Below are positions 2,131 to 50,287 of a stretch of 64,000 nt of DNA, one piece after another (within the stretch, counting starts at the first letter, position 1; the number at the start of each line of letters is the position of its first letter). A program made the translations under genes and the position numbers. This stretch comes from Antedon mediterranea (taxonomy: Eukaryota; Echinodermata; Crinoidea; Comatulida; Antedonidae): positions 5,986,312 to 6,050,311 of the forward strand of contig NC_092675.1 in the NCBI RefSeq assembly GCF_964355755.1, in the 5' to 3' direction. Below the pieces are notes generated by a model. It had not been told where the DNA came from and made no database searches. It was given only the letters and a program-made list of their open reading frames with translations.

Positions 2131-3650
2131 CATCCAGGGTTTTCCAGTATATTCCTTTGTATTGTGTAAGGGGTGAAGCAATTATAATAACCAAGACCGA
2201 TGTAACTTCTCCATATTTTATTATTTTCAACCATATTTTTCAGTTTCTCAAGGGCTTCATTCTCACCTGAACAAAAAAAATCACCAAAAACAATATACTA
2301 AGCGTTTATAACGTTTTTATTATATTGTATTACAGTATATATACTTGCTATTAAATTTAGGCTATTTTCCATTTTTAGTTTTTTTCACAGTTGCAAAATG
2401 AGGTGATTATTGTGGCCAGTCTGCATTAGTACCCTGAATTAGGTGGTATGATTCTCTGTCAATAACTCATTAACTGTACATTTGTTTGTGGATTCAAGAA
2501 CATCATAATTAAATGAAATATAAGTTGAATCAACTGCTCTTATCATACTGTATTATTCAAAGAGAGTACAAATTGGAAACGTAATACAGGAATGTTATGA
2601 CAGAAATGTAGGTTACTTACATAAGGCTGGCGTGATTGAAAGGGGGTCATCGACCAGAATATTGGCTGGAACAGTTAGTTTTGTTAGGTCTTCTAGCGAC
2701 TGTAAAAAAAAACAAGGGCCATGTCAATATGCTATATACGAATACAATAATGTATTGTATACAATCTGAATGCTAAAATCTTTTAATGAAAATTTATGTT
2801 ATATTCATTTTTTTAATATTGTTAATTAAATACTACAGTACAGTAACTAATGCAATGTTTGAAGAGTAAATGTTATCCAGTGGTGCAGGTTTTGGGTAGG
2901 GGGTGGTGGTTGAGAGGATTTGGGAGAAATAGTTTTGTTACTTTAATACTTAATATCCGTCAGTATACTTTAGTTAATTCGTCATAAAACTCAAATTATC
3001 CTATTCAGACCTATAGTGCATCACATCAGCTGTAGCAGCAGTACATTCTAGGCTGTGACACACAAGGGATCAAACAAGGACCATATTTTATCACTCCCAT
3101 AACTTTTATGATATACATTAAAAATAGAGTAAATATTATTAATTGTCTCAATTGTATTTTGTTTAAATATAATAGTCAATAGGCCTAGCCTACCTAGGCC
3201 CTAGGCCTAGTTCTTTTTTTCCAGTTGAGAAAGTACACTGAATGAAATGCCCTGTTGCGCAAGAAAACAACACAAATAAAATCTCTTTTTTTTTGTCTGA
3301 AATCAAAATCTTCAATTTCAAATTTAGGCAAATGTGAAACACAAAAAAGTTTTTTTTACCTTTGCTCCAACTGTTTTAAGCATTTCATCAATATCACAAG
3401 CTCTTGGTCCAATGTGTCTATCAGCAAAGACATCGTGCTTAGGATAGACATTGTCAATAGCCCTTCCTGTGCAACTGAATCTTTTCCCAGTTGTAAGGCT
3501 AGGCCTAGCCACTTGAGTACAGGCAACGTATCTTGTTCCAAGACACTGGCCTATTAGGCCAACATTATTCGAAATCCTATACTTCGCGCGCATAGCAGAC
3601 AGGCTTACAATAGCCTGGTACTGACGAGCAACATTCATTTTACTAAACAC
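2131..3650 (-). CDS. GLDC: glycine dehydrogenase (decarboxylating) P-protein, first three coding exons, partial
   Basis: GLDC is the PLP-dependent P-protein of the mitochondrial glycine cleavage system. It decarboxylates glycine and passes the aminomethyl group to H-protein lipoamide. Exon 1 is 3650-3361, starting at either of two in-frame ATGs (3650 or 3638). Exon 2 is 2699-2621 and exon 3 is 2266-2131, with AG/GT borders and matching phases. Exon 1 encodes an Arg/Ser-rich N-terminus like a mitochondrial targeting peptide, then the family signature FADRHIGP. Exons 2 and 3 encode [14 protein letters not shown] and [13 protein letters not shown], typical of the P-protein N-terminal domain. About 170 of roughly 1000 residues are present, so the PLP-lysine region lies off the left edge. 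The family match is unambiguous; only the choice of start is uncertain. Confidence 0.95.
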
Positions 3651-4759
3651 AGAATTTATGTACCAGTAATCTACAATGGATCTAGATACTAACTAGACTA
3701 GATCACATGCAATTGATGAAATTACTAAATATATTTCACGATTCGCATGAAAAAAATAAAAAACGGTAACAATATCAAACACAGAAATACAGGCCTCCTT
3801 CTCCCAGCCGTGAACACACACACCACGACGACGACGAGAGCAAAACATACGATAAAAGGAATAGAGGGGGCGCGGCTGGTTAAAACTGAAAAGTGTAAAG
3901 TGATCAGCGAGAACTGCATCGGATTGGTTCAAATGCAAACATGTAAATCGATATATTCTTAGGCAACCAATAAAAATCATTTTGTTGTTACGTAATACCT
4001 GTAATACACTCGTTTAGCAGTCAACATGTCACTATTATGTTCAATATTAATTCAATAATATAGAAAACTGAAAATATATGGTTTAGGATTATAAAATGGA
4101 ACATTACAATATCACGCCGGAAAAGTTATTCAAAGTAATTCATGCATACATAATTTATTAAGTTCTCTCCATTGGTTTGTATTGCATATTATTGGGTGAA
4201 TTATTCATTATCATCAATTGGGCCTACTATCGTAAAATACGAGGAAGTAAAATACATACAGTACTTACAAAAACAAAGGTAAAGTAATAAAAAATGAGAT
4301 TTTTTTAGTTATTCATGATAGTTAGGCCTACTGTAAGTTTACATTTTAAACTAATAATTCTATAAGATTTAAAGATAGACATTAAGAATTTAAAACATTC
4401 AGATTGACACATATTGTTGGAGATCTTTGTATAGTTGATACACTTTTAGTTGGTAGTCTCTACACACCAAGTAAATTTCAGTGAATGTGTGTTTTCTTTT
4501 GAAACAGTGGCACAAGATATATAAAAAAAAGAACATGAACAAAAATAATACTTTTGAAACAGTAGCACACTTCTTAAATGAAGGTGCGTCCATAGTACAG
4601 TAAGTAAAATAAAAGTTAGAGAGAAAAAAAGTATTTAACAATAGGCCTGTTTACAGTACAAGAAAACTTACTTAGAAATGAATTATGTACAAGATATAAA
4701 AAATAACATTAACAAAAGTAATACAGGGTTTAAAAAGCAAATTCATTGTTGATTTCTCT
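3651..4759. other. intergenic, GLDC upstream region
   Basis: This is the 5' flank of GLDC and should hold its promoter, but no TATA or other clear element stands out. A 35 bp stretch at 4009-4043 beginning ACTCGTTTAGCAG recurs at 7768-7802. Around 4490-4570 there is a short imperfect direct duplication (CTTTTGAAACAGT). Otherwise nothing supportable. Confidence 0.4.
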
Positions 4760-13760: not shown

Positions 13761-14044
13761 TATATACATACATACACACATACATCATTCCGTTTCAATT
13801 GTATATACATACATATACACACATGTATATGTAGCGATACTCTAAAAGCAGTATTATCATTTTATTGTATTTAAGTTCATATTTACTTAGTAGCTTGTAT
13901 ATCCTCAATGATCATGCCTTAGTTTGATTTTACACATTCCAATCTCTGAATTAATTAAGACTGTACCTCCTTTATCTAGGTTTCCATAACAACTGGTCCA
14001 TTTTGTGGGTTTTGTGGTGGGCAGGTATATAAAATATACCAAAT

Positions 14045-14070
14045 TGGCTAGTTGAGAATTCTCAACTATT
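14045..14070. repeat. left boundary palindrome of the minisatellite block
   Basis: TGGC followed by the perfect 20 bp palindrome TAGTTGAGAATTCTCAACTA and then TT. The same 26 bp occur in inverted orientation at 23639-23664, so the two copies form terminal inverted repeats around 9.6 kb. The half-palindrome TAGTTGAGAA is also part of every unit of the minisatellite inside. Confidence 0.85.
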
Positions 14071-14340
14071 ACCGCAGTACGCCTGTACGACGAAGCCTAC
14101 CGGTATAATGGGATAGGCTGATTTCCTTGTTAACTTAAGGGTCATTTAATTACTGAATTATGATTGGTAGTAAAGGAAATTTACTGGAATCCTATTGGAT
14201 GGTAAGGTGGTAGTAGGACCATGTCCATCCCATTGCAGTAATAAAGTTGAGCCACCTGCGACCATTACAATGCCCTACCATGCTAATGTAGGAGTGGGGA
14301 AATGTTATGCTTACTACTGTTTCTTTTAATAATTTAGTAC

Positions 14341-16347
14341 AATTAATAAGAATAAAGAATACACTTAACAATAGGGCCTATACAACAAATAACATTAATG
14401 TACGATGTAGTTTAACACTGTTCTCAACTATAATCATTTTGGTATACTTGAGCACAGTGATAAAGAATAGGATAAACTTAACAATATACAACAAATAACA
14501 TTAATGTATGATTCCGTTTAACACTGTTCTCAACTATAGTAATTTTGGTATACTTGAGCACAGTGATAAAGAATAGGATAAACTTAACAATATACAACAA
14601 ATAACATTAATGTACGATCCCGTTTACCACTGTTCTCAACTATAGTCGTTTGGTATACTTGAGCACAGTGATAAAGAATAGGATAAACTTAACAATATAC
14701 AACAAAAAACATTAATGTACGATCCCGTTTAACACTGTTCTCAACTATAGTCATTTTGGTATACTTGAGCACAGTGATAAAGAATAGGATAAACTTAAAA
14801 ATATACAACAAATAACATTAATGTATGATCCCGTTTAACACTGTTCTCAACTATAGTCATTTTGGTATACTTGAGCACAGTGATAAAGAATAGGATAAAC
14901 TTAACAATATACAACAAATAACATTAATGTATGATCCCGTTTAACACTGTTCTCGACTATAGTCATTTTGGTATATACTTGAGCACAGTGATAAAGAATA
15001 GGATAAACTTAAAAATATACAACAAAAAACATTAATGTACGATCCATTTTAACACTGTTCTCAACTATAGTCATTTTGGTATACTTGAGAACAGTGATAA
15101 AGAATAGGATAAACTTAACAATATACAACAAATAACATTAATGTACGATCCAGTTTAACACTGTTCTCAACTATAGTCATTTTGGTATACTTGAGCACAG
15201 TGATAAAGAATAGGATAAACTTAACAATATACAACAAATAGCATTAATGTACGATCCAGTTTAACACTGTTCTCAACTATAGTCATTTTGGTATACTTGA
15301 GCACAGTGATAAAGAATAGGATAAACTTAATAATATACAACAAATAGCATTAATGTACGATCCAGTTTAACACTGTTCTCAACTATAGTCATTTTGGTAT
15401 ACTTGAGCACAGTGATAAAGAATAGGATAAACTTAATAATATACAACAAATAACATTAATGTGCGATCCCGTTTAACACTGTTCTCAACTATAGTAATTT
15501 TGGTATACTTGAGCACAGTGATAAAGAATAGGATAAACTTAACAATATACAACAAATAACATTAATGTACGATCCCGTTTACCACTGTTCTCAACTATAG
15601 TCGTTTGGTATACTTGAGCACAGTGATAAAGAATAGGATAAACTTAACAATATACAACAAAAAACATTAATGTACGATCCCGTTTAACACTGTTCTCAAC
15701 TATAGTCATTTTGGTATACTTGAGCACAGTGATAAAGAATAGGATAAACTTAAAAATATACAACAAATAACATTAATGTACGATCCCGTTTAACACTGTT
15801 CTCAACTATAGTCATTTTGGTATACTTGAGCACAGTGATAAAGAATAGGATAAATTTAACAATATACAACAAATAACATTAATGTATGATCCCGTTTAAC
15901 ACTGTTCTCAACTAAAGTCATTTTGGTATACTTGAGCACAGTGATAAAGAATAGGATAAACTTAAAATTATACAACAAAAAACATTAATGTACGATCCCG
16001 TTTAACACTGTTCTCAACTATAGTCATTTTGGTATACTTGAGCACAGTGATAAAGAATAGGATAAACTTAACAATATACAACAAATAGCATTAATGTACT
16101 ATCCAGTTTAACACTGTTCTCAACTATAGTCATTTTGGTATACTTGAGCACAGTGATAAAGAATAGGATAAACTTAATAATATACAACAAAAAACATTAA
16201 TGTACGATCCCGTTTAACACTGTTCTCAACTATAGTCATTTTGGTATACTTGAGCACAATATACAACAAATAACATTAATGTACACGATCCTGTTTAACA
16301 CTGTTCTCAACTATAGTCATTTTCATATACTTGAGCACAGTGATAAT
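14341..16347 (+). repeat. minisatellite array 1, ~106 bp unit, about 19 copies
   Basis: Units start CACTGTTCTCAACTATAG at 14416, 14522, 14628, 14733, 14839, 14945 and so on to 16299. The period is 104-108 bp and copies are nearly identical. Each unit has 12 bp inverted arms (CACTGTTCTCAA and TTGAGCACAGTG) 44 bp end to end, then about 62 bp of linker containing AATAGGATAAACTTAA and AACATTAATGTACGATC. Spacing and conservation fit a satellite; there are no unique spacers as in CRISPR. The same unit is present in reverse orientation at 18157-23322. Confidence 0.97.
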
Positions 16348-16379
16348 ATGAAAAACATAATAACACTATAATATTTCTA

Positions 16380-17165
16380 GATGAATGACGCGGACACGTA
16401 CATATGTTCATAAGTAATTGATATAAATTGACTTTTAAAAGTGGAATTAACACAAATGATTGTAGATAAATATGACGTGAATTGCACGTACATTATGTTG
16501 ATGAGTAGTATATTTATATAAATCGACTTTGAAAAGTGAAATAACACTAATATGTGTAGATGAATATGACGTGGACACGTACATATGTTGATTAGTATAT
16601 TGATATAAATCGACTTTTAAAAGTCAAATTAACACTAATATTTGTAGATGAATATGACTTGGACACGATTTACATATGTTGATGAGTATATTGATATAAA
16701 TCGACTTTTAAAGGTGAAATAACACTAATATTTGTAGATGAATATGACGTGGACACGTACGGTATATAATGTTGATGAGTATATTGATATAAATCGATTT
16801 TTAAAAGTGAAATAACACTATTAGTTGTACACTATTGATCATATATGAATATGACGTGAATTGCACGTACATATGTTGATGAGTAGGCCTATATTGATAT
16901 TGACTTCGAAAAGTGAAATAACACTGATTTGTAAATGAATATGACGTGGACAAGTACATTTATTGATGAGTATATTGATAAATCGACTTTTAAAAGTGAA
17001 ATAACACTAATATTTATAGATGAATATGACGTGGACACGTACATATGTTGATGAGTATATTGATATAAATAAAACTTTTAAAAGTGGAATTAACACTATT
17101 GATTGTAGACGTGAATTACATGTACATATGTTGATGAGTGTATTGATATAAATCGACTAAACGTT
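16380..17165 (+). repeat. second tandem repeat family, ~80-107 bp unit, about 9 diverged copies
   Basis: Copies are recognised by ATGACGTGGACACGTACATA (variants at 16388, 16474, 16568, 16656, 16745, 16852, 16945, 17029 and 17108), then GATGAGTATATTGATATAAA, then ACTTTTAAAAGTGAAATAAC. Unit length and sequence vary much more than in the flanking minisatellites, so this array is older or less homogenised. A further one to two copies in the same orientation lie at 17985-18150. Confidence 0.9.
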
Positions 17166-17984
17166 AAATAACACTATCTTGTACAGGTACCCTCACTTGC
17201 ACTGATGAAGGGCTAGTGTTGCCCGAAAACTCTGCTATCTTTTCTGTCTGTTTTACTTTATCTTTCTTTCTTTCTTTCTTTATTAAAAACAAACCAATTG
17301 GCAGCAAATCTGCTGAATTGCATGGTAAGGGACAATATACATTCAAAAGACAAGTAAAGTAATAGTCATCATTAGGCCTAAACAAAATTATCGCAATTAC
17401 AAAATATATGTAAATGTAAACATAAAGTTAAAAAAATATAGTCTTATTGCAAGGATATAGTATATACATTATTACTTAATTACAGTATAAAAATATAATC
17501 TTAAATTTAAGTTGCAGTACAGTATTTACATTGGTTTCTTAATTAAAGTCGACTTCAGACAATTAAATAATTACAATTATACATTTACAAAAACATTAAA
17601 TACAAAATTAAATGAGAATTAAGAATAAATTGAGTCAAATTCAAGAAATTTCTACTAGGCCTATATGTCAAATTAATTAATATCTGGTTACATTATACAT
17701 TTATTTTCTTTTATTATTTAATCAATACTGTTGAGGCAGCGAGTGAGAAACGGGATTGCACTGTTTCCATATCTATTTGTCTTATTTTTGGGGACCTGGT
17801 ATGTATTACTTTTCCGTAAGGCCATATTATGCGTACTCATATTTCTCGGAAACCACTCAGCATATCTATACGCATTAGCACATTTCGTTTTGATTTAGCT
17901 TTTCGCTTCTTTTTTTGTATCTCCATTGAGACCACAGCATTGTTATTATTTAAGTATTTTGCCTTTGGATTTACTAATATTAAA
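17166..17984. other. spacer between repeat arrays with retroelement-like pieces
   Basis: It begins with CACTGATGAAGGGCTAGTG followed by TTGCCCGAAA (17199-17227). This is a CTGATGA / short GGGC-GCCC stem / GAAA arrangement resembling a hammerhead core. A (CTTT)n run (17258-17281) and an AT-rich LINE-tail-like stretch follow. At 17735-17835 AACGGGATTGC followed by CCGTAAGGCC resembles the right end of the transposon at 27125-27176. No intact gene. Confidence 0.5.
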
Positions 17985-18156
17985 GGTGAAATAACACTAA
18001 TGACTGTAGATGATATGACATTTATGTTGATGTATATATTTTTGTATATATAATATGCACACGTACATACGTTGATAGGTATTGATATAAATAGATTTTT
18101 AAAAGTACGGTAATAGACACTTTATTTGTAGATGAATACGACATGGACAAGTTGCA

Positions 18157-21100
18157 ATAAGTTTATCCTATTCTTTATCACTGTGCTCAAGTATACCAAA
18201 ATGACTATAGTTAGAACAGTGTTAAACGGGATCATACATTAATGTTATTTGTTGTATATTGTTAAGTTTATCCTATTCTTTATCACTGTGCTCAAGTATA
18301 CCAAAATGACTATAGTTAGAACAGTGTTAAACGGGATCATACATTAATGTTATTTGTTGTATATTGTTAAGTTTATCCTATTCTTTATCACTGTGCTCAA
18401 GTATACCAAAATGACTATAGTTGAGAACAGTGTTAAACGGGATCGTACATTAATGTTATTTGTTGTATATTATTAAGTTTATCCTATTCTTTATCACTGT
18501 GCTCAAGTATACCAAAATGACTATAGTCGAGAACAGTGTTAAACGGGATCGTACATTAATGTTATTTGTTGTATATTGTTAAGTTTATCCTATTCTTTAT
18601 CACTGTGCTCAAGTATACCAAAATGACTATAGTTAGAACAGTGTTAAACGGGATCATACATTAATGTTATTTGTTGTATATTGTTAAGTTTATCCTATTC
18701 TTTATCACTGTGCTCAAGTATACCAAAATGACTATAGTTAGAACAGTGTTAAACGGGATCATACATTAATGTTATTTGTTGTATATTGTTAAGTTTATCC
18801 TATTCTTTATCACTGTGCTCAAGTATACCAAAATGACTATAGTTGAGAACAGTGGTAAACGGGATCGAACATTAATGTTATTTGTTGTATATTATTAAGT
18901 TTATCCTATTCTTTATCACTGTGCTCAAGTATACCAAAATGACTATAGTTAGAACAGTGTTAAACGGGATCATACATTAATGTTATTTGTTGTATATTGT
19001 TAAGTTTATCCTATTCTTTATCACTGTGCTCAAGTATACCAAAATGACTATAGTTAGAACAGTGTTAAACGGGATCATACATTAATGTTATTTGTTGTAT
19101 ATTGTTAAGTTTATCCTATTCTTTATCACTGTGCTCAAGTATACCAAAATAACTATAGTTTAGAACAGGGTTAAACTGGATCGTATATTAATGTTATTTG
19201 TTGTATATTATTAAGTTTATCCTATTCTTTATCACTGTGCTCAAGTATACCAAAATGACTATAGTCGAGAACAGTGTTAAACGGGATCGTACATTAATGT
19301 TATTTGTTGTATATTGTTAAGTTTATCCTATACTTTATCACTGTGCTCAAGTATACCAAAATGACTATAGTTGAGAACAGTGTTAAACGGGATCATACAT
19401 TAATTTTATTTGTTGTATATTATTAAGTTTATCCTATTCTTTATCACTGTGCTCAAGTATACCAAAATGACTATAGTCGAGAACAGTGTTAAACGGGATC
19501 GTACATTAATGATATTTGTTGTATATTATTAAGTTTATCCTATTCTTTATCACTGTGCTCAAGTATACCAAAATGACTATAGTCGAGAACAGTGTTGAAC
19601 GGGATCATACCTTAATGTTATTTGTTGTATATTATTAAGTTTATCCTATTCTTTATCACTGTGCTCAAGTATACCAAAATGACTATAGTTGAGAACAGTG
19701 TTAAACGGGATCGTACATTAATGCTATTTGTTGTATATTATTAAGTTTATCCTATTCTTTATCACTGTGCTCAAGTATACCAACATGACTATAGTTGAGA
19801 ACAGTGTAAAACGGGATCGTACATTAATGTTATTTGTTGTATATTATTAAGTTTATCCTATTCTTTATCACTGTGCTCAAGTATACCAACATGACTATAG
19901 TCGAGAACAGTGTTAAACGGGATCATACCTTAATGCTATTTGTTGTATATTATTAAGTTTATCCTATTCTTTATCACTGTGCTTAAGTATACCAAAATGA
20001 CTAGTTGAGAACAGTGTTAAACTGTATCGTACATTAATGTTATTTGTTGTATATTATTAAGTTTATCCTATTCTTTATCACTGTGCTCAAGTATACCAAA
20101 ATGACTATAGTTAGAACAGTGTTAAACGGGATCATACATTAATGTTATTTGTTGTATATTGTTAAGTTTATCCTATTCTTTATCACTGTGCTCAAGTATA
20201 CCAAAATGACTATAGTTAGAACAGTGTTAAACGGGATCATACATTAATGTTATTTGTTGTATATTGTTAAGTTTATCCTATTCTTTATCACTGTGCTCAA
20301 GTATACCAAAATGACTATAGTTGAGAACAGTGTTAAACGGGATCGAACATTAATGTTATTTGTTGTATATTATTAAGTTTATCCTATTCTTTATCACTGT
20401 GCTCAAGTATACCAAAATGACTATAGTTAGAACAGTGTTAAACGGGATCATACATTAATGTTATTTGTTGTATATTGTTAAGTTTATCCTATTCTTTATC
20501 ACTGTGCTCAAGTATACCAAAATGACTATAGTTAGAACAGTGTTAAACGGGATCATACATTAATGTTATTTGTTGTATATTGTTAAGTTTATCCTATTCT
20601 TTATCACTGTGCTCAAGTATACCAAAATAACTATAGTTTAGAACAGGGTTAAACTGGATCGTACATTAATGTTATTTGTTGTATATTATTAAGTTTATCC
20701 TATTCTTTATCACTGTGCTCAAGTATACCAAAATGACTATAGTCGAGAACAGTGTTAAACGGGATCGTACATTAATGTTATTTGTTGTATATTGTTAAGT
20801 TTATCCTATACTTTATCACTGTGCTCAAGTATACCAAAATGACTATAGTTGAGAACAGTGTTAAACGGGATCATACATTAATTTTATTTGTTGTATATTA
20901 TTAAGTTTATCCTATTCTTTATCACTGTGCTCAAGTATACCAAAATGACTATAGTCGAGAACAGTGTTAAACGGGATCGTACATTAATGATATTTGTTGT
21001 ATATTATTAAGTTTATCCTATTCTTTATCACTGTGCTCAAGTATACCAAAATGACTATAGTCGAGAACAGTGTTGAACGGGATCATACCTTAATGTTATT

Positions 21101-23322
21101 TGTTGTATATTATTAAGTTTATCCTATTCTTTATCACTGTGCTCAAGTATACCAAAATGACTATAGTTGAGAACAGTGTTAAACGGGATCGTACATTAAT
21201 GCTATTTGTTGTATATTATTAAGTTTATCCTATTCTTTATCACTGTGCTCAAGTATACCAAAATGACTATAGTTGAGAACAGTGTAAAACGGGATCGTAC
21301 ATTAATGTTATTTGTTGTATATTATTAAGTTTATCCTATTCTTTATCACTGTGCTCAAGTATAACAACATGACTATAGTCGAGAACAGTGTTAAACGGGA
21401 TCATACCTTAATGCTATTTGTTGTATATTATTAAGTTTATCCTATTCTTTATCACTGTGCTTAAGTATACCAAAATGACTAGTTGAGAACAGTGTTAAAC
21501 TGTATTGTACATTAATGTTATTTGTTGTATATTATTAAGTTTATCCTATTCTTTATCACTGTGCTCAAGTATACCAAAATGACTATAGTTGAGAACAGTG
21601 TTAAACTGGATCGTACATTAATGCTATTTGTTGTATATTATTAAGTTTATCCTATTCTTTATCACTGTGCTCAAGTATATCAAAATGACTATAGTTGAGA
21701 ACAGTGTTAAACTACATCGTCCATTAATGTTTTGTTGTATATTGTTAAGTTTATCCTATTCTTTATCACTGTGCTCAAGTATACCAAAATGACTATAGTT
21801 GAGAATAGTGTTAAACGGGATCATACATTAATGTTATTTGTTGTATATTGTTAAGTTTATCCTATTCTTTATCACTGTTTTCAAGTATACCAAAATGACT
21901 ATAGTTGAGAACAGTGTTAAACTGGATCGTACATTAATGTTTGTTGTTGTATATTGTTAAGTTTATCCTATTCTTTATCACTGTGCTCAAGTATACCAAA
22001 ATGACTATAGTCGAGAACAGTGTTAAACGGGATCGTACATTAATGTTATTTGTTGTATATTGTTAAGTTTATCCTATACTTTATCACTGTGCTCAAGTAT
22101 ACCAAAATGACTATAGTTGAGAACAGTGTTAAACGGGATCATACATTAATTTTATTTGTTGTATATTATTAAGTTTATCCTATTCTTTATCACTGTGCTC
22201 AAGTATACCAAAATGACTATAGTCGAGAACAGTGTTAAACGGGATCGTACATTAATGATATTTGTTGTAGATAATTAAGTTTATCCTATTCTTTATCACT
22301 GTGCTCAAGTATACCAAAATGACTATAGTCGAGAACAGTGTTAAACGGGATCATACCTTAATGCTATTTGTTGTATATTAATAAGTTTATCCTATTCTTT
22401 ATCACTGTGCTCAAGTATACCAAAATGACTATAGTTGAGAACAGTGTTAAACGGGATCGTACATTAATGCTATTTGTTGTATATTATTAAGTTTATCCTA
22501 TTCTTTATCACTGTGCTCAAGTATACCAAAATGACTATAGTTGAGAACAGTGTTAAACGGGATCGTACATTAATGTTATTTGTTGTATATTATTAAGTTT
22601 ATCCTATTCTTTATCACTGTGCTCAAGTATACCAACATGACTATAGTCGAGAACAGTGTTAAACGGGATCATACCTTAATGCTATTTGTTGTATATTATT
22701 AAGTTTATCCTATTCTTTATCACTGTGCTTAAGTATACCAAAATGACTATAGTTGAGAACAGTGTTAAACTGGATGGTACATTAATGTTATTTGTTGTAT
22801 ATTATTAAGTTTATCCTATTCTTTATCACTGTGCTCAAGTATACCAAAATGACTATAGTTGAGAACAGTGTTAAACTGGATCGTACATTAATGCTATTTG
22901 TTGTATATTATTAAGTTTATCCTATTCTTTATCACTGTGCTCAAGTATACCAAAATGACTACAGTTGAGAACAGTGTTAAACTACATCGTACATTAATGT
23001 TTTGTTGTATATTGTTAAGTTTATCCTATTCTTTATCACTGTTCTCAAGTATACCAAAATGACTATAGTTGAGAACAGTGTTAAACTGGATCGTACATTA
23101 ATGTTTTTTGTTGTATATTGTTAAGTTTATCCTATTCTTTATCACTGTGCTCAAGTATACCAAAATGTCTATAGTTGAGAACAGTGTTAAACTGGATCGT
23201 ACATTAATGCTATTTGTTGTATATTGTTAAGTTTATCCTATTCTTTATCACTGTGCTCAAGTATACTAAAATGACTATAGTTGAGAACAGTGGTAAACTG
23301 GATCGTACATTAATTTTATCCT
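18157..23322 (-). repeat. minisatellite array 2, inverted copy of the ~106 bp unit, about 49 copies
   Basis: The same unit as array 1 in reverse complement (TAAGTTTATCCTATTC, CACTGTGCTCAAGTATACC, GACTATAGTTGAGAACAGTG). Variants recur in the same order with a 1478 bp offset: the GATCGAACATT variant (18861 and 20339), AACTATAGTTTAG (19151 and 20629), CCTATACT (19327 and 20805) and ATGACTAGTTGAG (about 20001 and 21479). This is a 14-unit higher-order repeat present twice in tandem, with a partial third copy offset by 1268 bp (CCTATACT at 22073). Confidence 0.97.
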
Positions 23323-23638
23323 TTGCTTTACTGTGCTTTGATTTGATAAGCAAGTTTGGTTGCCCCGCCCCCATATGCTACCTACTAAATTAGGATTCCC
23401 TAGCTTTTCTATAAAAATTGAAGTACCCACAATGCACGTTATACGGAAGTCATAGTCTTGTAAAATACAGACACAATATTTTTATGGTATTGTTTTCATT
23501 TAAATATCACTAAGATTGTCTTAAACTACAAACAACTAAAATTAGTGAAGGTATGCAAGTGTTTCTAAATGTTTACTACTGGTAGTATTAATACAATTTG
23601 GATTATATCATTTTCCAGAAAGGTAGAAAAAAACATAA
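23323..23638. other. unique segment between array 2 and right boundary palindrome
   Basis: About 315 bp of non-repetitive sequence. I see no gene or known element; it contains CCGCCCCCATATGC around 23367. It does not match the unique segment on the other side of the block (14071-14340). Confidence 0.4.
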
Positions 23639-23664
23639 AATAGTTGAGAATTCTCAACTAGCCA
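23639..23664. repeat. right boundary palindrome of the minisatellite block
   Basis: Inverted copy of the sequence at 14045-14070: AATAGTTGAGAATTCTCAAC followed by TAGCCA. It sits about 30 bp from the left terminal repeat of the transposon at 23696. Confidence 0.85.
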
Positions 23665-23963
23665 GGATGGTATAGGAAATATAGCTCGGAATAATAGGCC
23701 TTACGGTGAAGATGAAAACATTTTTTCTTGTTCCTCATTAAGCATAATAAGTGAACTCTCTTGATTCATATACATAAAAATAAATTAATCACGTATTAAA
23801 AAGTTCCACGAAAATTTTCCTGACATTTTAAAGAAATCTTGATTTTAAAAGTATAAAAGAATATATTTTCGCAGTTGCCATTTTGTATCACATGACATCA
23901 GTTAAACCAATCATACGCGACGTTTAGGCAGCAGACGTCAAAATCACACGATGTAAACACGAA

Positions 23964-28730: not shown

Positions 28731-36477
<7,747 letters not shown>

Positions 36478-39001: not shown

Positions 39002-42000
39002 TCATGTTCTTTTATTGTGTTTTTGAAGAAGTTTTCTCTCATAATCAGATCCACCAACCAGGACTATAAAAGCCGGAGTACCTGCAAGTATTCGGTATCT
39101 ATACAGGGGGAAATAAAAAGATTATTAGAGAAAAGGAATTATAGATATTAGCATATGGACTCCATGTCTTAAATTTCAAAACCATATCAATAGGTAGAAT
39201 AATAAATCATTATTATATCCTGCAAGCAAGATTAAGGTTTTTTAGTGATCTATCGATTCAGCACTTTCACAACTTCAGAGGTTTACACACACCGGGGAGT
39301 CTTTACCCAAGGTTTGTGTGATGTGTGTTTGTGGTGTGTGTAAACTCTGAAGTCTTGCTAGGCGATGTGAAAGTCCCTTACATTTTGTATAATATGTGTT
39401 TTGTTGGCGATATCAGAGAGGAACAACATGTATTCATGAAAAGATCTGAAAATTTTTAACAATACACCACAACAGACTAGGAGAGAAGAGAATAGACATG
39501 TTTCGCAACGCTACAAATAGGATAACTTTGGGAATATGAGAATGGGAATCAGCTCAAGAGTTTCACAATTGTATGACGTATCCGTTTTTGTTATCGTATT
39601 CATAGCATTGCGAAACCTCCCTATCCTATTTATGGCAATAAGCAACAGACCAATCAGGAAATGGGCTTTCACAGTGAAATAAGTAATAGCATTAATTGAA
39701 TACGAATGCAAACATAACAATCAAAAACACAGACAAAATGTCTTACCGTGAATCTGACAAAATAGTTTTCAAAGTGTTGTGTGCATTCACCTTAATCAGA
39801 AGTTGGCTATTATGATCCTCAAAATAAACCTATAAAAAAGATCAAAAAAGATATTAAATCAATGAGGTAATATATGTAAAATTTGTGATATAACATTTTT
39901 ATATTAATATAATTTCTATTCAAATATGTAAAATTATGTAGGCTGCCATATGTTATAAAAGCATTGCTACAACCAAAGCTGCTGATAATTCTAAAACTCT
40001 AATGCATGAAAAGAAAGGTTACTGTCACAGATGAATTAGAAACAGAATTAGAAAGAACAAGCTTATCCGTCAGCATATGCTGAAGCACTACTGTAAAACA
40101 AAAATCTTTTTGAAATCCATGTTTCTATATGTTACCGAAAGCAAACTGATGGTAATTTATTATAGTTACCTGTAAGCGATTGAGGTCATATTTCTTTTCA
40201 GTGTCCCACTCAATAAATTCATCTTCACCAAACATTACCTCTAGATGATCTTGTAAACTGTATGATGATGAAGAAAGCCACAAGATATAAAAATTAAATA
40301 ACATTATCAGATCGCCAAGCAAAACTTTGGAGTTTACACACATAGGGGCACACACCAAACAAAACACAGGTGGTTACAGTCTAATGTGTATAAAATATAG
40401 AGTTTTGATTTGAAAAGTTAAATTAAAAAATGGCTCTAAAAAGATTCATGCATTCAACAGTATCGTACCAACATCACAACACTTACCTTGCATTTTCATT
40501 AAACGCTTCAATAAGTTCTGTAGTTGCGTGTTCGGGATACATGAACCTGACAGGCCATATAAGAGCACCCTCTTCATCTAAAGATACTATGTTATCACTT
40601 CCTTGAAGCGTTGCGTACATTCTATCTTCTTCGGATAATAACTCATTATCTTCATCTTCATCGTTTTGTAACTTGATATTCCTTTTCTATTATTATTTCA
40701 GGAAGTAATTTTTAAAAATTGATTTTGATTTAATTTAATTGTTCTGTTTTTATTTATTTCGTTACCATACATAAAGAAAACAAACACAGAACAAAGGAAA
40801 AAAATGTATTATGGTACCAGGGATAGCCCTCTAATTTACATCCTGAGGGGTCCTACATAATAATCACATTTTTATTTATGTAAACAATACAAAATATGTA
40901 TTTTAGACAGTAGGATAATTCTTCATCAAAATCATAATAAAATAGCAGATATTAAATTTAAATTATTAGCTTAGCATGAACTTATTTTTTAAATGATGGA
41001 GTGAGGCTTTTATTTTTGAATTTGCAAAACATAATTCTGTAATTTGTATTTCAACAAGTAAAAAGAATGACCAAGTTTCTGCATAATATTGCCACAAGCC
41101 TTTGTATGCAAATCATCAATATTATATACTGTGCTTTTAATATTGTTCTTTCTGTCTTGTTTTTAAGGAAATGAATTTTATAAATATCATACCTTTATAG
41201 CTTCCAGAAGTCTTTGTTTTTGTGCTCTTTCTTTCTTTTCTTGTATCATTCTTTTCCTTCTTTCTTTTTCAAAGATTTTCTACAATTTTATAAACAAATT
41301 GTTATTGCATATATGTAGGAATGGGTTAACAAAATATTGTTTTATTAAAAAACTCAGGGGGAGGGTATATACCTCAGAGGGAGCAGAGCATATACCTCAG
41401 AGGGTGCATAGGCCCTATAAGTACCTCAGAGGGATCATATACCCCAGAGGGATCATATACCTCAGAGGGTGCATAGGCCCTATAAGTACCTCAGAGGGAT
41501 CATATACCCCAGAGGGATCATATACCTCAGAAGGAGAATAGGCCCTATAAGTACCTCAGAGGGATCATACACCCCAGAGGGATCATATACCTCAGAAGGA
41601 GAATAGGCCCTATAAGTACCTCAGAGGGATCATACACCCCAGAGGGATCATATACCTCAGAAGGAGAATAGGCCCTATAAGTACCTCAGAGGGATCATAT
41701 ACCCCAGAGGGATCATATACCTCAGAGGGTGCATAGGCCCTATAAGTACCTCAGAGGGATCATACACCCCAGAGGGAGCATATACCTCAGAAGGAGAATA
41801 GGCCCTATAAGTACCTCAGAGGGATCATACACCCCAGAGGGATCATATACCTCAGAAGGAGAATCGGCCCTATAAGTACCTCAGAGGGATCATACACCCC
41901 AGAGGGAGCATATACCTCAGAGGGAGCATAGGCCCTATAAGTACCTCAGAGGGATAATACACCCCAGAGGGATCATATACCCTAGAGACCATATACCCTA

Positions 42001-45000
42001 GGGACCCTATACCCAGGGGAAAATATGACCCGGGGGACTATATACCCAGGGAAGGCCATATATCCCAGGGGGACCATTACATCCAATAGTTGGCTTATCT
42101 ATAAGAATAAAATGTATTGAGGCATAATAAAAATTTGGTTTGCGGTACATGATGTGTTTCTAAAAAGGAAGTAAATTGGGGTTGAGAATGTCTGGGCGTT
42201 TTGTTTGTTTTGATATAATACTGTACTTCCTGTTGCTACTGCAAACCTGACTGTACTAGTGTTTATTTACCATGCACATGTCATTTTTTAACAATAAAAG
42301 AGTTTAGTAAAATTGAATGCGCCCATTATATGAACACGATGACATCATATCACTACCATATTTGGGCACACTTCTTTTGTCAAACAAGTTTGATAATGTA
42401 GACAGAGCTTCAACAATAATAAAATGATAAAGTACGGTTTGATAAACATTTACTTACATGTGCTTTATCTGCTTTTAATCGATACTCCTGTAGAGTAACG
42501 TCTGTGGGTTTTTCCTTAAAAAACAACAACAAAAATCAAACAGTTATAGTATACAAATAATGCACAAGTCTAAATTCGTATGATTGTGCGCACTCTTGGG
42601 TATTCACAATGTCGTGCATGTCGGAACATTGTTAATACCCTAGACTGCGCCACATCTCCACTAACACACTCTGACTTGTGCATTTTTTGTATACTAAACA
42701 ATGTCCCAAGAAATTAAAATCAGAGAACTTAGTACTAATGACTGAACAATCCACCCTTTGTGCAAAATCTGCTTTGAAAATGTCTACATTTCTGTAAAAT
42801 TACGTGTAAACATTAGAATTGTTTGAATACCTTTAAACCTCGATCACACCATTGCACGGCAGCTGAGTAAAGTTCTAACTTCATGCAACACTGAATACAA
42901 CGAAGAAGAGCTTTATTATGATCAGGATTTAACTCTAGAGCTTTCACAGCATCATTTAGCGAAGAACGAAAATTACCTTGAAATAATACAATAAAACTAT
43001 TAATCATCATATTATTCATGTAAAAGAAAGGTACGCGTAAATGTGAGTCCTGTATTCATTCTGAACTTGGGGGAATAAGCTGTAAGGGGCTCATTGTACT
43101 AAGCCTTGGCATTATTTTGTAGAGTGGCCAGTTTGTCTGCAAACCACCTTTAACCTCCCTAGTAATTTGTGTAATTAATTATGTAAAAGAAATGAGCTGT
43201 TAGGGTCTCATTGTACTAAGTTTTGAAATTATGTGCTAGTGTTGGCAATTATTTTCAATGCTACTTTTATCCAGGGAGTTGTAAAATAATTTTTTATAAC
43301 TCCTTGCTTTTATCCACCCAAAACTACATGAAACGACATGTCCTAAATATCATAAAAAAAGATATTATTAAAGATTTCTGTGATTTTAAAAGTACCTAAG
43401 TGGTATTCAGCAGCAGCCTTATTTGTATATAAAATAGCATTAAGTTTATCATCCTTTGCATTCTGCTTCAGACCCTCACTGTAGGCTTTGCTGGCCATTT
43501 TGAATTTCTTCTTCTTAAAACAATCATTGCCATCATCTTTGTAGCTTAAAGCAGTTTCTGGAGGAGAAAAATGTATTCTAAAATCAATTCTATTAAAAAT
43601 GAATCGATGTAGACAGACAGTCTAGACTGTTCAGACAGACTTGTATGACTTGAAATGAGGAAATGTCAAATGGGGTGGGGTGTCGGGTTAGTAAAAGTAG
43701 GGGGGTGGGGTTAGTAGGGAATGGGGTTAGTAATAGTAGGGCATGGGGTTAGTAGGGAATGGGGTTAGTAATAGTAGGGGTGTCGGGTTAGTAAAAGTAG
43801 GGGCGTGGGGTTAGTAGGGAATGGGGTTAGTAATAGTAGGGGAGTGGGGTTTATAACAGTAGGGGAGTGGGGATAGTAATAGTAGGAGTGTGGGGTTAGT
43901 AATAGTAGGAGTGTGGGGTTAGCAGGAGCGTTGGGTTAGTAAAAGTAGGGCGTGGGGTTAGTAAAAGTAGGGTGTGGGGTTAGTAGTGGTGTGGAGTTAG
44001 TAAAAGTAGGGCGTGGGGTTAGTAATAGTAGGGGAGTGGGGTTAATAACAGTAGGAGTGTGGGGTTAGTAAAAGTAGTGCGTGGGGTTAGTAAAAGTAGT
44101 GCGTGGGGTCAGTAAAAGTAGGGTGTGGGGTTAGTAGTGGTGTGGAGTTAGTAATAGTAGGGGTGTGGGCTTAGTAGGGATGGTGTATATCACATTTTAG
44201 TACCTTCAGGTGTTCCTTCGTCATATTTTAACGCTTGTAATGCTTCTATTGCTGTAGATGTTGCACCATCATCAGTTTTTGTCATAAATGCAGGAATTTT
44301 TTCTATTTCCTATTTTAAAAAGAATATTGGTTAAAATCAATGAATGAATAATAATTTTTCATTGCTACATAAATACTATAAACCACCAGTATGTACTCTT
44401 ACTGTTTTTCATAAATTATTAAAAATAAATTTAGATAAATTATTTTTGAAAGGCCCCATCAACATCAGTTTTCGCGCCGCTGCTCTAGCCAGCTATGTCC
44501 CATGAGCACATATTCATTAATAAGCTGTTTCTTAGTGGTAGCTTTAGTATCTAAGGCCGACAGTTTTGCTAAAATGGAAACTCAACTATAATTTATAGTT
44601 CCCAGCTGCTGGACCCAACAAACGTCCTGGGGGGGGGGGAGAGTCGATTTCGGATTCTTAACCTTTGATTGGCTGACGCGAATCAACAGATTGTGGAAGA
44701 ATTTTCACTTGAGAGGTCATGTTGTCGCTAGAGGGTATTCAGTTGCATGCCTATAGTTCAGGTTGAGGTCACAGACAAACAGGCTTCAGCACAATAAAAT
44801 TCAAAATTTACCATTTTGGAATTAGTAGATTAAAATTTTTTGGCAAATAATACATTGTTGGAAAGGTACACATGTCTTCTGTCAAATGCTGTGTATACAA
44901 TTAACCAGTGAAAAAATGGGCATGTGATTCATAATTAAAGAACTATCTGTGATTTGTATGTACTCCTTGCGATTAAAAAAAGAAAATCTTTTTATTAATG

Positions 45001-48056: not shown

Positions 48057-50287
48057 AAGTCGGAGCAAAATGACCCTGAACCAACGGACTCGGAACCCAA
48101 ACAACTTCTTCATGAATTTTATACATTACAAGAGCAAAGAGTGACAGCTTTTAAAATGCTAGATAAGTATGTTTAAAAAAAGCTAATATTTATTGAACAT
48201 AATTTTTTTATTTCATAGAAAATTGCTCCATAATGAAGTAGCTGGCCTATAAGTCGGGTTTAATTGAATAATGTCTTTTATTTATAATCAATATAGAATT
48301 TCATAAAACCGTGCATGACTTATTCTGCGTGGCTCTGATGTCATAAACAAAGTTTGTATTATATTGTATTATATATTTTGAAAAAGTTGCAAAATATTCT
48401 GTTTACAAGTTTTAGAGAAACGCTATGGACAAAAATGGCAGTAAAAAATAAGAATAACAAATGTTAAAAAAAAAAAGATCCTGACAATCACAAGGGTTAT
48501 CTGCAATATCTTGCGGATAACCAATGAAGAAATTATTTACATTTTACTAAACATTTTAGCCTGTCATGTAAAACTGTTTAAAATCCATGAAAAGTAATTT
48601 TTTAGCATCTCGTATTCTTTTTATACGACTTCAAAAATGAATAATATATTTTCATTTTCTAGTGCACATACAGCATACCTCAGTACAGCACCAGACTATG
48701 ATTTTCAAAGTTACAAACAAAAAGTGCATAGTATAACAGAAGATTTCAATCGTATTTCCCAGCGTATCATTTTAATAGAAAAGTTGTTTCGCGACAAACA
48801 TGAAAAGATCGCAGTAGCTGATTGCTTGACTCAAGTACAGACGATGGAAAAACAACATCTTGAATTGGTAATGAAAGTTTTCCAAAAGAAGTTTTTCTAT
48901 TTTCTACTATTAAAGTGCCCATATATGGTAGTGATATGCTCAAATATGGTAGTGATATAACATGACATGTCCATATATGGGCACATCACATTTTTTTATC
49001 ACATAAAGTTTGATAGTGTAGACAGTGCTTAAAAACTGTCAACTATTGTTCCTACAGTATCTCCTCAAAAAAGTTTCCCCACCACCTTTCACATATCATA
49101 TCATACGAACCCCCTCCCTAACCTATTAGCTATCAAAAGTTGTCCATGCCCCACCACCTTTCACATATCATATCATACGAACCCCCTCCCTAACCTATTA
49201 GCTATCAAAAGTTGTCCATGCCCCACCACCTTTCACAAATCATATCATACGAACCCCCTCCCTAACCTATTAGCTATCAAAAGTTGTCCATGCCCCACCA
49301 CCTTTCACATATCATATCATACGAACCCCCTCCCTAACCTATTAGCTATCAAAAGTTGTCCATGCCCCACCACCTTTCACAAATCATATCATACGAACCC
49401 CCTCCCTAACCTATTAGCTATCAAAAGTTGTCCATGCCCCACAACCTTTCACATATCATATCATACGAACCCCCTCCCTAACCTATTAGCTATCAAAAGT
49501 TGTCCATGCCCCACCACCTTTCACATATCATATCATACGAACCCCCTCCCTAACCTATTAGCTATCAAAAGTTGTCCATGCCCCACCACCTTTCACATAT
49601 CATATCATACGAACCCCCTCCCTAACCTATTAGCTATCAAAAGTTGTTTTTACCCGGTAAATTAACATTCTTTAATTGATTTCTTCAATTCAGATTGCTG
49701 AATTGCAACTGGCTAAGCAGAACATGCAGGACATTCCAAATGATGAAAATGTTCGAGAGTTAATGATATTTATTAAACAGCGGTAAGCCTGTTGGGTGTA
49801 TTTAAACTAGTTTGTTCTTACTCTTTCTCTATAAAATATTGTATTATATATTTATTTAATTTAGTTTATTTGACCTAGGCCTATGTACAAGCTGTTATTT
49901 TTGGTCTTCCTTTCATTTATATTCATATCCTTTATTCCCTCCGGTATCATCCAGTACAACAGGAAGTTAAGAAGATAATATTATCTTGTATTTTTTTAGA
50001 TGTTTTTATATGAATGGTTTTATGCTATATTTGTTTTATTGTGTTTTCTTTGTTATTATGACAAGCAATGAATTTCCTTTTTGAGGATCAATAAAAGTTA
50101 TCTTATCTTATCATTGAAAAAATTTGTACATACAATAAATGAAATAAATAAGTTACTTTTGAATAATTTTTTTTCAAATATATTTGTTAAATTGTTATAC
50201 TACAGGTTGAACAAACTGTTAGAAGAAATTGCAGAACATCTTGAAAATTTGAAATACGAGACAGAAGATTTATTAGACCAGGATTGA
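48057..50287 (+). CDS. REX1BD: REX1BD-like protein (required for excision 1-B domain), 5' exon not found
   Basis: Four exons in phase: 48057-48166, 48663-48867, 49694-49782, 50206-50287, about 160 residues ending LLDQD. The translation (QLLHEFYTLQEQRVTAFKML, then AHTAYLSTAPDYDFQSYKQK, then a coiled-coil C-terminus) matches the Rex1-B domain family (human C19orf60/REX1BD). The family was named for the Chlamydomonas Rex1-B protein, implicated in DNA repair; the animal role is poorly known. There is no in-frame Met before LD in the first listed exon, so an upstream exon ending in phase 0 is needed. A candidate is the ATG at about 47921 (MPGILGER) with a weak GTCTGT donor, unproven. AATAAA at 51122-51127 may end the mRNA. 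Confidence 0.88.
48915..49031. mobile_element. short dispersed inverted-repeat element (CATATATGGACATG family), copy 3
   Basis: GTGCCCATATATGGTAGTGA on one side and CATGTCCATATATGGGCACA on the other, ending TTTGATAGTGTAGACAGTGC. It begins 48 bp after REX1BD exon 3 (48867). Confidence 0.65.
49070..49645. repeat. 72 bp minisatellite in REX1BD intron
   Basis: Eight almost identical 72 bp units; CTTTCACATATCATATCATA starts at 49086, 49158, 49230, 49302, 49374, 49446, 49518 and 49590. The only frequent change is ATATC to AAATC. Such homogeneity implies recent amplification, and copy number is probably polymorphic. Confidence 0.98.
49890..50105 (+). mobile_element. LINE 3' tail-like sequence
   Basis: An AT-rich stretch ends TGAGGATCAATAAAAGTTAT followed by CTTATCTTATC. 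Such repeated TATC-type termini after GAGGATCAATAAA are characteristic of CR1/RTE-like LINE ends. It lies in the last REX1BD intron. No coding part is left. Confidence 0.4.

Follow-up and report, generated by a model that had tools for sequence, protein, structure and literature searches.

Foldback transposons are recognised by long inverted terminal regions of tandem subrepeats, a target site duplication (TSD) of fixed length, and a non-coding middle that varies or is absent. FB of Drosophila melanogaster and TU of the sea urchin have long inverted repeats of tandem subrepeats, as does the element described here. Why foldbacks keep their long tandem arrays is an open question, and the idea that the arrays multiply transposase-binding sites rests mainly on Galileo of Drosophila. 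We analysed a 64,000-nucleotide window from the genome of the crinoid Antedon mediterranea (354 Mb in 18 contigs, here C1, C2 and so on; the window is C6:5986312-6050311). A block within it, C6:6000333-6009998, is very probably a non-autonomous cut-and-paste DNA transposon with the architecture of a foldback. It belongs to a family of about 50 copies, which we call A and which adds to the foldback class a new variant unusually rich in satellite.

In Galileo the TSDs are 7 bp long and lie in a palindromic motif of 15 bp (PMC4168063). The THAP domain of Galileo recognises a site about 70 bp from the end, beyond the roughly 40 bp that its families have in common, and further binding sites for this domain lie in the tandem repeats (PMC3688188). 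Tetris/DAIBAM of Drosophila virilis is a non-autonomous foldback with flanking, tandem-repeat and middle domains and a variable number of repeats; FB and TU have been named as foldbacks alongside it (PMC4079207). HINEs and Helentrons, which leave the target site unmodified and prefer T-rich sites (PMC4067079), can also carry short palindromes near their ends and a tandem core.

Results

The initial annotation took the block for a large mobile or amplified unit rather than a random satellite, and proposed a genome search for palindrome pairs flanking tandem arrays; a palindrome confined to this locus would have spoken against mobility. The palindrome, TAGTTGAGAATTCTCAACTA, has 104 exact copies genome-wide, against none for a reversed control pattern. 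Oriented matches with up to two mismatches (54 + 56) nearly all form convergent pairs 2.6-18 kb apart, and they define 50 complete elements at independent loci, every one of which pairs an L end with an R end, never L with L or R with R. Junction alignment of many copies shows the L end to be CAGGTATATAAAATATACCAAATTGGC followed by the palindrome, and the R end, read inwards, to be GAGCTATATTTCCTATACCATCCTGGC followed by the palindrome. Directly outside these ends lies an exact 7-bp TSD in 42 of the 50 copies (41 scored by script; the L end of the other is mutated, and its TSD was read by eye), where chance would give about 0.003 (50/4^7). Two further copies have a matching 7-mer shifted by 6-7 bp.

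Could the block be an immobile product of local satellite amplification or segmental duplication with palindromic edges? The window copy, which has no TSD, would fit such an origin, as would two L ends on C6, at 23977775 and 23994078, whose identical flanks look like a tandem duplication, and the presence of the A' subfamily in a shared flank at five loci. For the family it is refuted by the unrelated flanks of some 50 loci, most of which have an exact 7-bp TSD, and all the unit motifs listed for C1 (first 19.4 Mb) lie in or beside A or A' elements. We consider it very improbable.

All complete A copies read have long inverted terminal regions of tandem subrepeats, laid out as an L end of about 350 bp, a forward array, usually a centre, a reverse array, and an R end of about 370 bp. 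The middle is variable and non-coding. Two small copies, C1:26905979 and C9:24982790, lack the centre altogether; one part of it (about 17266-17884 in the window) is found in the window, C3:34117481 and C5:3970011 copies and is missing from the C8, C7:29670497 and C7:46008 copies; and no complete copy read has a transposase-like open reading frame (ORF) of its own. With the 7-bp TSD, these are the marks of a foldback. Arms range from 4 to 63 units among the complete copies read. Two further small copies, C4:29742050 and C7:7439694, agree in the left arm and the centre but have 7 and 9 units (BLAST) in the right arm. This suggests that arms change in length between closely related copies. As the ends of A copies are 97-100% identical to one another, the family has been active recently.

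Around the centre of the TSD the target shows a weak but significant palindromic symmetry (37 sites, column-pair permutation, p = 5e-5), with the strongest columns 5-6 bases from that centre. Family A thus shows both features expected of the P superfamily, a TSD of 7-8 bp and a palindromic target of 14-15 bp centred on it. In one copy, C6:2681342-2688488, the joined flanks match the end of an abundant repeat, family E, unbroken across the junction, so intact targets exist as paralogous empty sites. No TT preference was seen at A target sites, and the 39 target sites listed have no gene-like sequence in common, such as a Dada-type element would require.

These target sites also bear on a comparison with pearl-like Helentrons that the initial annotation had offered. 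A rolling-circle Helentron or HINE would account for the short palindromes at both ends and the internal tandem core, and HINE subterminal inverted repeats can be palindromic (PMC4067079). Such elements make no TSD and insert at T-rich sites, whereas family A has 7-bp TSDs at a weakly palindromic target without a TT preference, and a symmetric inverted design with two opposed arrays. The TSDs rule out this identity, and we give it next to no credence.

Some A elements stand next to another A or B element (family B is described below). This is the case at five loci, with the two R ends facing each other every time and at most 80 bp apart, where about 0.006 such neighbours would be expected by chance (an estimate from 50 copies, about 220 ends, 200 bp and 354 Mb). 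Two A elements are docked 7 bp apart at C1:15786460-15799030, with one 7-mer in three copies, and two others 11 bp apart at C7:4704810-4716378; A and B elements are 17, 21 and 80 bp apart at C2:14556331, C7:26553429 and C5:29599607, respectively. Next to a further A copy, C2:40622819, a remnant resembling an R end, GAATATAGCTC, lies 7 bp beyond the R end. Docking of this kind resembles the double P elements known from Drosophila, singed-weak among them.

Family A has close relatives in the same genome. Searching with the L outer end alone identified family B (L end CAGGTATATAAACTATACCAAACTGGC, R end GAGCTATATATCCAATACCAAATTGGC), with 60 copies whose 60 + 60 ends pair along the contigs listed. 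Its outer ends are nearly the same as those of A, while its palindrome, GAGTAAATCATGTTTTACTT, is different and its satellite unit is 101 bp long; the A and B units align along their length, with TGATAAAGAATAGGA as a common block. A' is a degenerate subfamily. Its copies at five sites have one common flank (..CTCTGTGTCCAGTCCTGC), and A' has therefore spread inside another repeat. When further families with these outer ends were sought by pattern, only A, A', B and minor relatives came up. Family E is very abundant (326 first-look candidates, ends GAGGTATATTCAGAGC...). A long exact pattern for its ends gave no match. Units of about 100 bp occur in B and also in the single E copy read.

The satellites repeat part of the terminal palindromes. 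One half of the A palindrome, TTCTCAACTA, is present exactly in the A unit, and one half of the B palindrome, TGTTTTACTT, exactly on one strand of the B unit. The longest exact word common to a palindrome and its own unit is 10 bp in both families, a length reached by 3 of 2000 shuffles for A and 32 of 2000 for B, whereas across the two families it is only 5 bp. In its folded form each unit presents two half-sites in inverted orientation, and in A one of the two is imperfect. Between A and B the palindrome has changed in concert with the satellite half-sites, and the outer 27 bp have hardly changed; this co-variation suggests that the satellite is a candidate multiplied transposase-binding site.

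In the window, the initial annotation had described the palindrome at both ends of the block in inverted orientation, with about 19 and 49 copies of one minisatellite in opposed arrays between them, and both descriptions hold (Table 1). Its limits, 14045 and 23664, fall 23 bp short on each side, because identity between copies continues for 27 bp outside the palindrome. A 1.8 kb spacer does separate the arrays, but it is not unique throughout, as its first part is itself a degenerate array. The 106-bp arrays of this copy are about 95-97% alike, and the arms form inverted repeats in which stretches of about 650 nt are 96% complementary.

Table 1. Features of the family A element and its immediate flanks, in window positions.
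Feature	Position	Strand	Remarks
Complete family A foldback element	14022..23687	+	9,666 bp, L to R; bounds from comparison of 50 copies and TSDs; whole-genome matches agree
Left flank TGGTGGG	14015..14021	.	Unlike right flank; no TSD
L outer terminus CAGGTATATAAAATATACCAAATTGGC	14022..14048	+	Short hairpin GGTATAT-AAA-ATATACC; family B differs at 2-3 bases
Left terminal perfect palindrome TAGTTGAGAATTCTCAACTA	14049..14068	.	Family-specific
L subterminal domain	14069..14378	+	Copy-to-copy identity 98-100%
Arm 1, satellite with 106-bp unit	14379..16339	+	About 19 units (BLAST)
Centre, degenerate repeats	16340..17170	+	Units of about 85-90 bp; found in most copies
Centre, remainder	17171..18150	+	No coding capacity found
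Arm 2, 106-bp satellite inverted	18158..23319	-	About 49 units (BLAST)
R subterminal domain	23320..23640	+	Copy-to-copy identity 97-100%
Right terminal palindrome TAGTTGAGAATTCTCAACTA	23641..23660	.	Inverted context relative to left
R outer terminus GCCAGGATGGTATAGGAAATATAGCTC	23661..23687	-	Reverse complement GAGCTATATTTCCTATACCATCCTGGC
Right flank GGAATAA	23688..23694	.	Unlike left flank; no TSD

With its ends and arms intact, the window copy looks structurally complete, but its two flanking 7-mers do not match. One explanation, additional to transposition itself, is that it is a chimera formed by ectopic recombination between two A copies, marking a past inversion or translocation breakpoint, which would be why its flanks differ. 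The lack of a TSD here, when 42 of 50 copies have an exact one, fits this, and Galileo chimeras formed by ectopic exchange are a precedent (PMC3573991, PMC2775673). However, among the A junctions read no other copy carried TGGTGGG or GGAATAA as an exchanged 7-mer, and deletion of a flank after insertion explains the mismatch equally well. We put the chimera at a little short of an even chance.

Exon-like ORFs lie on both sides of the window element. An ORF at 3324-3692 (-) resembles the N-terminus of glycine dehydrogenase (FADRHIGP motif), which places the element near genes. Other minisatellites in the window, at 29208-29416 (about 30 bp), 41389-41981 (65 bp), 43678-44180 (about 20-40 bp) and 49077-49647 (72 bp), are unrelated to it.

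P-type transposases exist in this genome (35 PF21787 matches). One of them belongs to a 5.5-kb P element, C1:2821000-2826550, which has 47-bp terminal inverted repeats (TIRs), a transposase ORF of 794 aa and another ORF on the opposite strand; it is about 99% identical to a copy on C3, and there are copies on C3 and C8. We rejected it as the autonomous partner of family A because its ends differ, and four other P loci likewise. A P-type transposase ORF elsewhere directly adjoins a palindrome of about 440 + 440 bp with inverted 14-bp tandem repeats.

The long A and B copies gave no candidate either. The copy at C8:17104066-17122621 is 18.5 kb long because of three-deep nesting: the A element contains a TTAA-flanked AGGGGG... 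element, which we take to be Kolobok-like by its ends, and this in turn contains a complete B element with the TSD ctctctg. The middles of three long B copies have no transposase-like ORF. In C6:23977600-23994200, where the two L ends of the apparent tandem duplication lie 16.3 kb apart, Harbinger-like transposase ORFs are found between these ends, outside any complete A element. The autonomous partner may sit in some A, B or E copy outside those read, or may be absent; family E is a likely place to look for it.

Discussion

The 7-bp TSD, the palindromic target and the shared outer ends make family A work most like Galileo, a member of the P superfamily. The likeness extends to long, internally repetitive inverted ends of variable length, to subfamilies of one genome with common outermost bases, to the mismatched 7-mers of some copies and, as candidates in family A, to tandem repeats carrying extra transposase-binding sites (for Galileo see PMC4168063, PMC3688188, PMC3573991). 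Because Galileo is matched in the length of the TSD, the symmetry of the target, the structure of the subfamilies and the repeated sites, we lean towards a P-type transposase as the enzyme that would move family A. We have not filed the family in the P superfamily, because no P transposase could be tied to these ends.

The differences from Galileo are clear. Its TIRs reach about 1.2 kb with two or three internal repeats, whereas an arm of family A has up to 63 units (about 6.6 kb). In family A the L and R ends differ, the candidate binding site is a perfect palindrome, the target consensus is not GTANTAC, and no P transposase is linked to the family.

Several observations weigh against the picture drawn here. 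No transposase was linked to the ends of family A. The A and B intervals listed contain none of the 35 PF21787 matches, and the five P loci that were read end differently. The R outer ends start with GAG, while most P termini start with CA. The window copy itself has no TSD. Finally, within the arrays the A half-site is no more conserved than the rest of the unit (63 of 106 windows of the same length are equally or better conserved), although homogenisation of the arrays weakens this test.

The missing P transposase would be explained if the same foldback transposon were moved by another DDE enzyme, whether hAT, Mutator, Dada or one as yet undescribed. This is possible, though in our view less likely than not. 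The TSD is typically 8 bp in hAT elements, 8-10 bp in MULEs and 8-10 bp in Tetris, whereas the clean 7 bp in 42 of 50 A copies is the length seen in Galileo, and Dada targets multicopy RNA genes, unlike family A. In favour of another enzyme, foldback architecture has arisen convergently, as in the Mutator/foldback element Tm1 (PMC3169594) and in Tetris, and long TSDs are made by several superfamilies (PMC3706591).

Tetris shares the domain layout of family A and differs in its details. Besides the longer TSD it has 220-bp repeats in its TIRs, against a 106-bp unit in family A, and only three structurally complete copies. Its repeats have escaped into free satellite, whereas in the part of the genome listed (the first 19.4 Mb of C1) we found no free array of the A unit, and the total of unit motifs fits the content of the elements. 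FB and TU are likened to family A by description, with no claim of sequence kinship.

On the simplest reading, a transposase supplied in trans would cut at the 27-bp outer ends common to the sister families, and its DNA-binding domain would read a family-specific half-site, TTCTCAACTA in A. This half-site, which forms the perfect palindrome just inside each end and recurs in each satellite unit, would turn the arrays into multiplied secondary binding sites. The arms probably lengthen and shorten through ordinary tandem-repeat exchange, and long arms should favour ectopic exchange, which may explain the mismatched flanks of the window copy.

A broader scheme, which we think unlikely, is that A, B, E and the minor relatives make up a superfamily of satellite-bearing foldbacks with an undescribed transposase. 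Each satellite would then be the multiplied end-recognition site of its own family, new satellites would arise through selection for transposase capture, and R-to-R docking would depend on the same recognition.

Families A and B, with nearly the same outer ends, different palindromes and in each case their own half-site in the satellite, amount to a natural swap experiment, and they make the idea of multiplied binding sites testable. The A elements are young and numerous, each carries several kilobases of inverted satellite, and the window copy lies in gene-bearing DNA. They are therefore candidates for driving inversions and for seeding satellites in this genome.

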